DNA from: Pagrus major
Lineage: Eukaryota; Chordata; Actinopteri; Spariformes; Sparidae
Direction: 5' to 3'
Assembly (NCBI RefSeq): GCF_040436345.1
Contig: NC_133236.1
Coordinates: forward strand, 13,756,443-13,820,442
Length of the DNA stretch: 64,000 bases
Part shown: positions 44,271 to 55,995 of the stretch, one piece after another
How the letters are laid out: each line of letters opens with the position of its first letter
Position numbering within the stretch: position 1 is the first letter of the stretch
Program-made: the position numbers and the translations under genes
Notes under the pieces: model-generated
Seen by the model: the letters and a program-made list of their open reading frames with translations, nothing else
Told to the model about the DNA's origin: nothing
Databases searched by the model: none

Positions 44271-45806
44271 ATGAGTGTCGATCCTCCGAACGGCACTTTT
44301 CCCAACACATCACTCGTCCTGGCTGCTCCACACAGCCTTTTGGAGGCTATAACCATCGCCTCGGTGTCCGCCATCGTCAGCTTGATCACTATTGTTGGTA
44401 ATGTGCTGGTGTTGCTGTCCTTCAAAGTCAACAGCCAGTTGAAGACTGTGAACAACTACTATCTACTGAGTTTGGCTTTTGCTGATCTCATTATAGGAGT
44501 GTTGTCCATGAACTTATACACTACCTACATCCTGATGGGTTACTGGTCCTTGGGAAACCTTGCATGTGATCTTTGGCTTGCAGTGGATTATGTAGCCAGC
44601 AATGCTTCAGTTATGAACTTACTTGTCATCAGCTTCGACAGGTACTTCTCCATCACGAGGCCGCTGACTTACAGGGCTAAAAGGACCCCAAAGAGAGCAG
44701 CCATCATGATCGGCCTTGCATGGCTGGTGTCTTTTGTCCTCTGGGCGCCACCCATCCTGTGCTGGCAGTACTTCGTAGGAGAACGAAAAGTGGCTCCTGG
44801 CGAGTGCCAGATCCAGTTTTTAACAGAGCCTGTGATCACATTTGGGACAGCCATTGCTGCTTTCTATATCCCTGTCTCTGTCATGACCATCCTGTACTGT
44901 CGGATCTACAAGGAGACGCAGAAACGGACCAAAGATCTGGCAGAGCTGCAAGGGCTCGCAACAGAGAATGTTCTAGAGGGGACTAAACCGCAGAAAACTA
45001 TCATTCATTCATGCTTTCATTTCACCAGAGAGAGGAGAGACCAGAGTCAGGCCTCCTGGTCCTCATCGAACCAAAGCAATGCCACTAAAACTACCACAAG
45101 ATCAGATGACGCATGGGTGAAAGCAGATCAGATAACTTCCTTTAACAGCTACACCTCATCTGAAGAGGAGGAGCATCATGTTTCAATAGATACCCCACAG
45201 GGATCTTTCAAAGAGCAAGGTAGTGGACAAAGTAATAAGAACGGGCAGGTGACTGATTATACAGAAGATCGGTACTTTGCCACTCCTCAAAAGAAGAACA
45301 GTAAAAAGCACATTTCGTATAAGTTCAAGCCTGGCTCGAAGGGTAAAAATGGCAATCCTACGATTGCAATGCCCTGCCCGCCCGAAGTAGAACAGCCAGC
45401 CAAAAACGCCTCCCCTTCTTCCTCCACCACCTCCAAACCCATGGACCCCGTCCTGAAGAACCAGATCACCAAGAGGAAGAGGAACGTGCTGGTGAAGGAG
45501 AAAAAGGCGGCCCAGACTCTCAGCGCCATCCTCCTGGCTTTCATCCTCACATGGACGCCCTACAACATCATGGTGCTCATCTCCGCTTTCTGTGTCGACT
45601 GCATCCCCACGTCCCTGTGGCACCTGGGCTACTGGCTGTGTTACGTCAACAGCACCATCAACCCCATGTGCTACGCCCTCTGCAACAAGACCTTTCAGAA
45701 GACCTTCCGCATGCTTCTGCTCTGCCAGTGGAGGAGGAGGCGGAGAGGCGAGGACAAGCTGTACTGGTGTGGACAAAACCAAAATGTCAACAATAAAATG
45801 ACTTGA
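44271..45806 (+). CDS. CHRM5: CHRM5, muscarinic acetylcholine receptor M5 (single coding exon)
   Basis: A plasma-membrane class A receptor for acetylcholine, coupling to Gq/11 and phospholipase C. It is 511 aa (human M5 is 532). The N-terminus has sequons NGT (7-9) and NTS (12-14). TM1 starts near residue 26. D72 in SLAFADL is the conserved sodium-site aspartate. C99 and C179 form the usual disulfide. D106 is the ligand-binding aspartate, followed by [12 protein letters not shown], and DRY is at 123-125. The third intracellular loop (about 215-430) is long and variable, with basic ends, [10 protein letters not shown] and [21 protein letters not shown]6 has [13 protein letters not shown] and TM7 has [14 protein letters not shown] (NPxxY). 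The C-tail ends with a basic cluster and [13 protein letters not shown], like the KLYW tail of human M5. The loop ends and tail fit M5 better than M1 or M3. It runs against AVEN, whose first exon lies 1 kb upstream. Confidence 0.98.
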
Positions 45807-46856: not shown

Positions 46857-47355
46857 TTAAAGGGTAACCACCAATTTTACACATTAAAGTGTGTTTACAG
46901 GTCGTAGGGAGTACTAATGCATGTATGAAAAAGTTGTATAAAGCCTTTAGTGTCTATAGAGGAAGCTGCTGTAATCTGATAAATTGTCCTCAGTGATGTC
47001 ACTCAGTGTTGCGTTGTGGGTCATGTAGGCGTCAGGTTTTGAAAAGGAAGCAGAAGGCGTGGAATAATTAAGGTGATATCGCTGGTTCTGCTGTATTGAT
47101 TTTGATTATTTATTTATAACCGTCTATGATGAGTTCAACAGTGTTACAGGAGTGCGATGCTACATCAGTGGACTGCTTTTCAAAAGTTAGCATTACCCAC
47201 AATGCAATTTGACATGACATCACTGGAGACAATTTATCAGATTACATGCAGCTTCTTCTGGAGCCACAAAAGACTTTTTTTCACATATGCCGTAGTACTA
47301 CCCAAGACCTGTAAACACACTTAAATGTGTAAAAATTGGTGGCGGTACCCTTTAA
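46857..47355. mobile_element. TTAA-flanked palindromic MITE, 499 bp
   Basis: ttaaagggtaaccaccaatt and its inverse aattggtggcggtaccctttaa (47334-47355) start long inverted repeats. Inner segments also pair: gctgctgtaatctgataaat with atttatcagattacatgcagc. TTAA at both ends points to piggyBac-type mobilisation. Confidence 0.85.
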
Positions 47356-48775: not shown

Positions 48776-49070
48776 ACTAGATGGCGTGTTTCTTTATTGT
48801 GATTAATGTGGTAGTTTGTTATGAGACAATCCCACCTACACTGTCCTGCTGCCACCAGTTTACAAAATCTGCAGTTTTAAATTGTCCCTGATAAATACAC
48901 AAATTTCTCATGTTTGATTAGCATTTGCTAAAAACTACAGTTCCCAGGTGATTGAGTAAATTATTGAGCTTTCTTTTAAAATACAAGGGGAGACACTGCA
49001 GGTGTGGTACCATGAAACTTTTGGATGATTTGATAACTTACATTAAGACAATTGTTTTTTTACGGAAGCC

Positions 49071-49757
49071 CTAAAGGGCCATGCATTCATACATTTTATT
49101 TCCTCTATTTTCCCGTGATAACGAGTTAATTTAATTTGTTTTCTCGAGATCTCAAGTTATTATCTCGAAATAACAACTGCCGTTTTCCCGAGATAACGGG
49201 ATCATTTTCTTGAGATCTCGAGATAACGAAACTTTGTTTTCCCGAGATAACGATATAATTAATTCGAGATAAATTAATTCATAGCTGGTCAGCTATGTAG
49301 TTAACGGCGACATCAGGCTCACTTAGATTGCGCCGCTGATATAGCTGAAGTCTTTTTAGATTATGCACACTAATGTGTGTATTATCTGTAATAGCAAGGC
49401 ATAATGCTATTTCAGCCTGTGTCAGGCCTTGATTGAAAAGATATGTGACGTGGTGATCGATATGCTCCTGCTCCTCTGACATTGCTACATTGAATGATGT
49501 TTCCTGCAATGATTTAATATACTACACTATCGTTTCGTTTTCTCAAGATCTCGAATTAATTATATTGTTATCTCGGGAAAACAAAGTTTCATTATCTTGA
49601 GATCTCGAGAAAATGATCCCGTTATCTCGGGAAAACGGCAGTTGTTATTTCGAGATAATAACTCGAGATCTCGAGAAAACAAATGAAATTAACTCATTAT
49701 CACGGGAAAACGGAGGAAATAAAATGTATGAATGCATGGCCCTTTAGGGCTTCCGTA
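49071..49757. mobile_element. 687-bp near-palindrome (CGAGATAACG element) with 7-bp target duplication
   Basis: The left arm from 49071 (tacggaagccctaaagggcc) and right arm to 49757 (ggccctttagggcttccgta) are inverted copies of about 215 bp, differing at only a few percent of positions. The arms are built from cccgagataacg, ctcgagatctcgag and related short palindromes. GTTTTTT flanks both sides (49064-49070, 49758-49764). The element interrupts a copy of the GACACTACAGG repeat. The loop carries a 76-codon minus-strand ORF. It looks recently mobile; I cannot assign the superfamily with certainty. Confidence 0.88.
49279..49509 (-). pseudogene. Transposase/integrase N-terminal HTH-like fragment in the palindrome loop
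   Basis: 76 codons starting MQETSFNVAMSEEQEHIDHH, with FNQGLTQAEIALCLAI (helix-turn-helix-like), NLKRLQLYQRRNLSE and ending YIADQL at a stop in the left arm. The pattern (short acidic start, G-T-EIA-LAI, LKR-LYRR-N) resembles the N-terminus of integrase-core (DDE) proteins abundant in fish genomes. No catalytic domain follows, so it is a remnant or a captured DNA-binding piece. Assignment is from memory of family pattern. Confidence 0.5.
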
Positions 49758-49959
49758 GTTTTTTGAAGTTATATATGAAAAGGATAAATTATTAAATATG
49801 AGCTGATTTGCATACATTTGCTGAAGCCAGGTTAAAAATTCTTGTAGGAATAAAATGTTAATAAATCATGATATGAATGACATAAAAGCAAACCCCTCTA
49901 TAAATACACCTACATTATACTCTTCTATAAGTATTGATAGCAATAAAGATTTTGTAAAA

Positions 49960-55389: not shown

Positions 55390-55995
55390 TGTCTGCCCAA
55401 AAATGAAAATTCAGTCATTGCCTACTCACTCCCATGCTGATGGAAAGTCGGGTGAAGTTTTATAGTCCATAAAACACTCATGGGGCTTCACAGCGAAACA
55501 GGTGCAGCATTCTCCTACAGCTAAAGTAGATGGGGACTTGTTTTAAAATGTAAAAAACAACCAATAAAAGAAACACAAAATGGCTCCAAAAAGCTTGTCC
55601 ATGGTTACCAAAGTCTCCAGAAGCCACAAACTGTTTTGCAAAGTTACACGTGGTCAAGATCGAGATCTCACACCCGCTTCAGATGGGGTGCATGCTGACG
55701 CTATTAGCTTAGCAGCTAAAGTGAAGATTTCAGCTTTTGAACAAAGGTGTATATAACATCTTTTCAAATCAATTTTGGATTTCAGGCTTCCAGAAACTGG
55801 ACTGGCAGTGTGGGGGGTCGTTTTTTTTAACATTTAAAAACAAGTCCCCATCTACCTCAGTTGTTCAGGAGAATACTGCCACACTATTTTACTGGAAAAC
55901 TCCAGAAATGTTATGTGAACTACTCAATTCTCCATCAGCATGGGGTTGAGTAGGTAATGACAGAATTTTCACTTTTGGGCGAACTCTTCCTTTAA
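55390..55995. mobile_element. Long palindromic TTAA-type MITE, about 600 bp
   Basis: gcccaaaaatgaaaattcag, cctactcactcccatgctga and agatggggacttgttttaaa at the left have inverse partners ttttaaaaacaagtccccat (inner), tcagcatggggttgagtagg and attttcacttttgggcgaac at the right. The right end reads ctcttcctttaa (TTAA 55992-55995); the left end is decayed. Confidence 0.8.

Follow-up and report, generated by a model that had tools for sequence, protein, structure and literature searches.

A multicopy, non-autonomous DNA transposon family with module-rich inverted arms in a fish genome, probably of the IS3EU superfamily

Structure of the element

The stretch of DNA analyzed here (the window, 64,000 nucleotides, C22:13756443-13820442 of its assembly) contains an open receptor frame of 511 codons at 44271-45806 (7tm_1 match, 1.7e-67), which we take to be a muscarinic receptor, and a 697-bp element at 49061-49757 with the ends TACGG...CCGTA. 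The element consists of two terminal inverted repeats (TIRs) of 210 bp each, the left arm at 49061-49270 on the plus strand, with reiterated modules close to TTTTCTCGAGATAACG, and the right arm at 49548-49757 on the minus strand. As inverted copies, the arms are identical at 201 of 210 positions, which makes them 96% complementary, and the loop between them has 277 nt. The sequence GTTTTTT is found on both sides, at 49054-49060 and at 49758-49764, as a target-site duplication. An earlier note on this DNA had described this 7-bp duplication around an element of 687 bp that started at 49071 and had near-perfect arms of 215 bp; the duplication, the near-perfect inversion and the right end at 49757 are as described, while the true start lies 10 bp further out, at 49061, and both lengths had to be corrected. 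When ends of the type TAYGG..CCRTA, 80 to 4000 bp apart and with identical 6- or 7-bp flanks, were sought throughout the window, this element was the sole case.

The arms are rich in CpG, with observed/expected ratios of 1.96 and 1.76 versus 0.43 in the flanking 10 kb. Folding of the element as RNA gave -428.5 kcal/mol versus -159.3 (sd 6.2) in 20 shuffles; the earlier note had anticipated a very long hairpin, and the strand carrying the element would, by this model, form a very stable one.

Copies in the genome and target sites

We searched the window's own assembly (785,883,843 bases in 25 contigs) with the element and found at least 159 matching stretches at an E value of up to 0.001, a figure that includes matches of one arm to the other and is therefore not a copy number. 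The idea of a single-copy curiosity was discarded on this result. Of 868 first-look candidates, 40 were scored, and copies beyond these 40 places are likely. The loci examined comprise 20 from the assembly search and 20 further stretches, and six of them (L019, L020, L031, L032, L036, and L040) had no pair of ends. For the comparisons of reading frames, substitutions, and arms, 27 of 38 end pairs were kept; those omitted were both rows of L004 (which repeat L003), one row each of L003 and L009, both rows of L011, and L034, L035, and L037 to L039. The counts of target duplications and ends refer to 35 distinct flank pairs, and the window copy (L001) belongs to both sets. The ends were located with the terminal 30-mer of the window copy, so copies with quite different ends would be missed. 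L003 and L004 have their flanks in common and lie 12.3 kb apart, and for this reason they most likely represent a single insertion that was duplicated together with its surroundings.

An exact 6-bp duplication is present directly outside the ends in 23 of the 35 flank pairs, compared with 102 matches among 94,640 offset flank comparisons (0.1%) used as a control. The 12 pairs without it are the window copy, with its 7 bp, and 11 others in which neither 6 nor 7 bp agree exactly at this boundary. A and T predominate in the middle four positions of the duplicated sites, whose G+C content is 32% overall. The 7-bp duplication of the window copy may be a 6-bp GTTTTT that acquired an extra T within its poly-T run, an explanation that comes easily, as GTTTTT is the duplication found at another copy (L023). 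Left ends (n = 35) read TACGG in 25 cases, TACAG in 7, TATGG in 2, and TACGC in 1, and right ends (n = 35) read CCGTA in 30, CCATA in 3, CTGCA in 1, and CCGCA in 1; departures from the exact TACGG or CCGTA occur in 10 of 35 left or right ends, each end being counted apart. The earlier note had proposed a mobile element and had named the finding of one copy only as evidence against it; the genome contains many dispersed copies, and most of the two-ended ones have a target-site duplication of their own.

Arm divergence and age

In the outer 165 bp, the two arms of the same copy diverge by 0.0490 (27 copies) and arms of different copies by 0.0485 (1404 comparisons), values that include the rearranged copies L030 (0.103) and L033 (0.140). 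The arms measure 158 to 226 bp in 25 of the 27 copies, the others being L030, with 72 bp, and the rearranged L033. Equal divergence within and between copies is what would be expected if near-identical copies had spread in a burst and no arm-to-arm conversion had followed, and homogenization of the arms by gene conversion was rejected on the basis of these two values. The description of the element as young, made before the copies were compared, can be kept only as a relative term, as the arms differ by about 5% both within and between copies. In the window copy, eight of the nine arm differences are located at CpG sites and the remaining one falls elsewhere, among 178 positions (Fisher P 1e-6), an excess that probably reflects deamination of methylated CpG.

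The same comparison bears on the notion that the locus is a hairpin kept for the production of small RNAs and not a transposon copy. The very stable hairpin is the point in its favor, but the arms are no more alike within copies (0.0490) than between them (0.0485), the copies are dispersed and have their own target duplications, and no Rfam family was found in the window at the gathering score. We rejected this explanation, to which we attach a negligible probability.

Arm modules

The 16-mer TTTTCTCGAGATAACG, with up to three mismatches, has 16 sites in the window, all of them within the element, which bears out the earlier claim of repeated modules. Eight of these sites are in the left arm (49108-49252), seven on the plus strand (49108, 49139, 49160, 49183, 49205, 49213, and 49237) and one on the minus strand (49181). 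In 300 dinucleotide shuffles, the number averaged 0.007 and never exceeded 1, a control that is generous because the consensus was read by eye from the arms themselves; for the same reason, the number of sites shows reiteration and not an independent function. The other eight (49538-49710) belong to the right arm and its immediate inner border, where the first of them (49538) straddles the inner end of the arm.

Some loci contain more of this sequence. In L018 and L021, one arm is extended at its inner end by additional module sequence, and L020 contains, at 2032-2966, a tandem array made of arm modules, in which a unit of about 121 bp is repeated 5.6 times over 2032-2695 (94% matches). This satellite-like array was apparently seeded from transposon ends, and together with the extra modules of the other two loci it indicates that the modules do expand. 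In L011 (C8:13230601-13234305), parts of the element are arranged head to tail at 600 bp, with matches that start at 13232845 and 13233445.

By analogy with other long and internally repetitive ends, the modules are most likely multiple binding sites for the transposase. The module 10-mer occurs as a word in 19 papers, none of them on fish transposons as judged from titles and the starts of abstracts, and arms of this type are not mentioned in the IS3EU passages of three papers on fish or repeats (PMC12763893, PMC5753468, and PMC9945428).

The reading frame in the loop

The loop has a small open frame on the minus strand, noticed previously as a frame of 76 codons. This length applies when it is counted from a TTG at 49509; the first ATG is at 49482, and the resulting open reading frame (ORF) of 67 amino acids (49279-49482) covers 204 of the 277 bases of the loop. 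Its length alone is not significant, since ATG frames of at least 68 codons, one above that of the element, are found in 39 of 657 loop-sized segments of the window and in 29 of 1000 shuffled loop sequences. The same ORF was identified by tblastn in all 27 compared copies. The window copy and four others (L002, L010, L018, and L021) have a 12-bp in-frame gap after LKR, from which the remaining 22 are free, and in longer copies the ORF runs on as ...IADQLRGPGRLHNLRPIISQ and then enters the arm.

The window ORF has a weak match to a helix-turn-helix (HTH) family of PHROGs (phrog_3855, E value of 0.026). For the 71-amino-acid ORF of L013, the HTH match in PHROGs has an E value of 0.065, and the best match (0.015) is to a family of unknown function. 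A structure model based on the single sequence consists of four helices with a mean pLDDT of 70; a fold search of the PDB with this model gave 11 matches within an E value limit of 10, none of which reached 0.001. Searches of Pfam and NCBIfam yielded no family at the cut-off, the only Pfam match of the 76-amino-acid version being CMD, at an E value of 0.15 and below its cut-off, and PDB sequences and plasmids (tblastn) yielded nothing. Neither relatives of the ORF nor the DNA pattern of the element were found in collections of viral and genome contigs, and a core fragment of the rva_4 type had no relative among the viral contigs; in none of these collections would one expect a fish transposon. 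We assume, as a lead only, that the ORF resembles the N terminus of fish proteins with an rva_4 (PF24764) integrase core, this Pfam family being presumably the integrase core of IS3EU-type elements.

The ORF is probably the N-terminal HTH DNA-binding part of a lost transposase. The earlier note had considered it the one part of the transposase that the element has kept: this identity is likely, with a weak HTH match, four predicted helices, and no family or fold match at the thresholds used, and retention in any selective sense is not supported by the substitutions described below. By eye, the minus strand before the ATG (49482-49560) contains TTAAATCATTGCAG followed by GAAAC and resembles a 3' splice site, which suggests that the lost transposase gene contained an intron. 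Also by eye, a small inverted repeat, CATAGCTG-GT-CAGCTATG, is located at the end of the ORF beside the arm (49279-49296) and is possibly a trace of the internal deletion.

Neutral decay of the ORF

The ORF region has no stop or frameshift in 22 of the 27 copies, although one of these (L016) has lost the ATG; the lesions in the other five are a stop in L033 and frameshifts in L007, L009, L012, and L029. The 27 copies differ from their majority ORF by 127 substitutions (23 synonymous, 103 nonsynonymous, and 1 stop), of which 48 are CpG transitions, and random placement of the same types of substitution gave means of 25.8, 98.7, and 2.5, respectively. As the copies are related, these counts are not independent, and the 74 unique events give the same answer (19, 54, and 1 versus 18.4, 53.4, and 2.2 expected). 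The ORF has decayed neutrally and looks like a passenger, where neutrality refers to the time since the compared copies spread and not to the ancestral gene. Selection on the ORF was rejected on the basis of this pattern.

A very improbable alternative is that the truncated ORF is functional, either as a small DNA-binding repressor or as an HTH domain fused to repeats encoded by the arm, and selected for the control of transposition. The 22 copies without a stop or frameshift would agree with it, as would the continuation of the frame through the arm in several copies, with 186 codons between stops for L015 and L021 and 211 for L035. Against it are the substitutions, which at 23/103/1 versus 25.8/98.7/2.5 show no sign of constraint, and the lesions, as among the 27 copies 5 have the four-codon deletion, 4 a frameshift, 1 a stop, and 1 a lost ATG. 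In L008, L013, L015, and L021, the arm is open in the frame of the ORF and reads as SLSREN/SRDLE peptide repeats that are fused to it (155 to 173 amino acids from the ATG), probably as a by-product of the module composition.

Superfamily assignment

Complete IS3EU families always have TA..TA ends and usually 6-bp duplications, with the first catalytic D located 100 to 300 residues from the N terminus, according to the section of PMC10045372 that deals with them, and a set from rust fungi is characterized by TAYGG..CCRTA ends, TIRs of more than 30 bp, and 6-bp duplications in the corresponding part of PMC12730594. A table in PMC4746887 lists 17,838 IS3EU copies, which by its first column and the percentage are those of zebrafish. 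In our family, the TA..TA termini are present in the window copy (TACGG..CCGTA) and in most of the 35 flank pairs, 6-bp duplications in 23 of these pairs, with 7 bp in the window copy, and the TIRs of the latter, at 210 bp, are well above 30 bp. The element is like IS3EU, which Repbase groups with GingerRoot, in its TACGG..CCGTA ends, the mostly 6-bp, AT-rich duplications, the long TIRs, and the occurrence in fish, and possibly also in the HTH-like N-terminal fragment. It differs in lacking a transposase core, in the 7-bp duplication of the window copy, and in having arms of reiterated palindromic modules, which are absent from the IS3EU passages cited here. We consider the element, with a probability of roughly 80%, to be a non-autonomous IS3EU DNA transposon in a fish genome, derived from a complete one by internal deletion. 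A point against this assignment is that neither a transposase core (rva_4) nor a full-length relative came to light in the search of the assembly with the element. The best reading of the family is IS3EU with module-rich ends similar to those of Galileo or Foldback, a kind that is already known and possibly already in Repbase.

Less plausibly, the element could be a non-autonomous member of another cut-and-paste superfamily, P/Galileo-like or Dada, with TA..TA ends that arose by convergence. Duplications are of 7 to 8 bp in P/Galileo and of 6 to 7 bp in Dada, and both the 7 bp of the window copy and the long, repetitive TIRs, which are Galileo-like, would fit; however, 7 bp is found in the window copy only, exact 6-bp duplications are found in 23 of 35 flank pairs, and the TACGG..CCGTA ends agree with the pattern in the published IS3EU passages. 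No THAP domain was found by Pfam in the 76-amino-acid ORF or in the 156-amino-acid ORF of L013, a partial test, as the core is absent. We regard this assignment as unlikely. Galileo (of the P superfamily) and Foldback are similar to our element in their long, internally repetitive inverted repeats, whereas Galileo has other ends, a THAP DNA-binding domain in place of an HTH-like fragment, and arms of more than 1 kb, as given in part of PMC3688188, compared with 158 to 226 bp in 25 of our 27 copies. In the same part of that paper, one binding site for the THAP domain of the Galileo transposase is described from footprinting, and more such sites were located in the tandem repeats of its arms.

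Proposed mechanism

Under the IS3EU assignment, both long TIRs and the start of the transposase gene would have been retained, while the catalytic part would have been lost by internal deletion. As the element encodes no catalytic part, the transposase would be needed in trans; made elsewhere, it would recognize the CGAGATAACG-type modules reiterated in the arms as well as the TA..TA ends, excise the element, and integrate it into AT-rich sites, which would produce 6-bp duplications. The ends and modules are the recognition sites to be expected, and by analogy binding here may be similar to that in Galileo. The family would be a clean example of how non-autonomous families are born, as ends and a probable leftover of the transposase multiplied together while the leftover drifted neutrally. 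With arms so rich in modules, it also lends itself well to the question of whether several sites are read by IS3EU transposases, as has been reported for the Galileo enzyme. Otherwise, the element is an ordinary kind of genomic parasite.

A bolder idea, which we hold to be quite unlikely, is an IS3EU lineage in which the ends have been built into expandable arrays of transposase-binding palindromes, Foldback-like and able to seed satellite arrays, and which amplifies derivatives coding for nothing but the matching DNA-binding domain. If this were true, the copies could act as decoys and as self-made repressors of the autonomous element.

Miniature inverted-repeat elements (MITEs) of fish are short, non-autonomous, hairpin-forming, and present in many copies. 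Our element is like them in all four respects and unlike them in that it retains a recognizable coding fragment, in 27 of 27 copies. The window contains three other long inverted repeats, at 46857-47355, 55395-55980, and 1582-2162, with arm identities of 79%, 75%, and 69%, respectively, which are probably older MITEs of other families.
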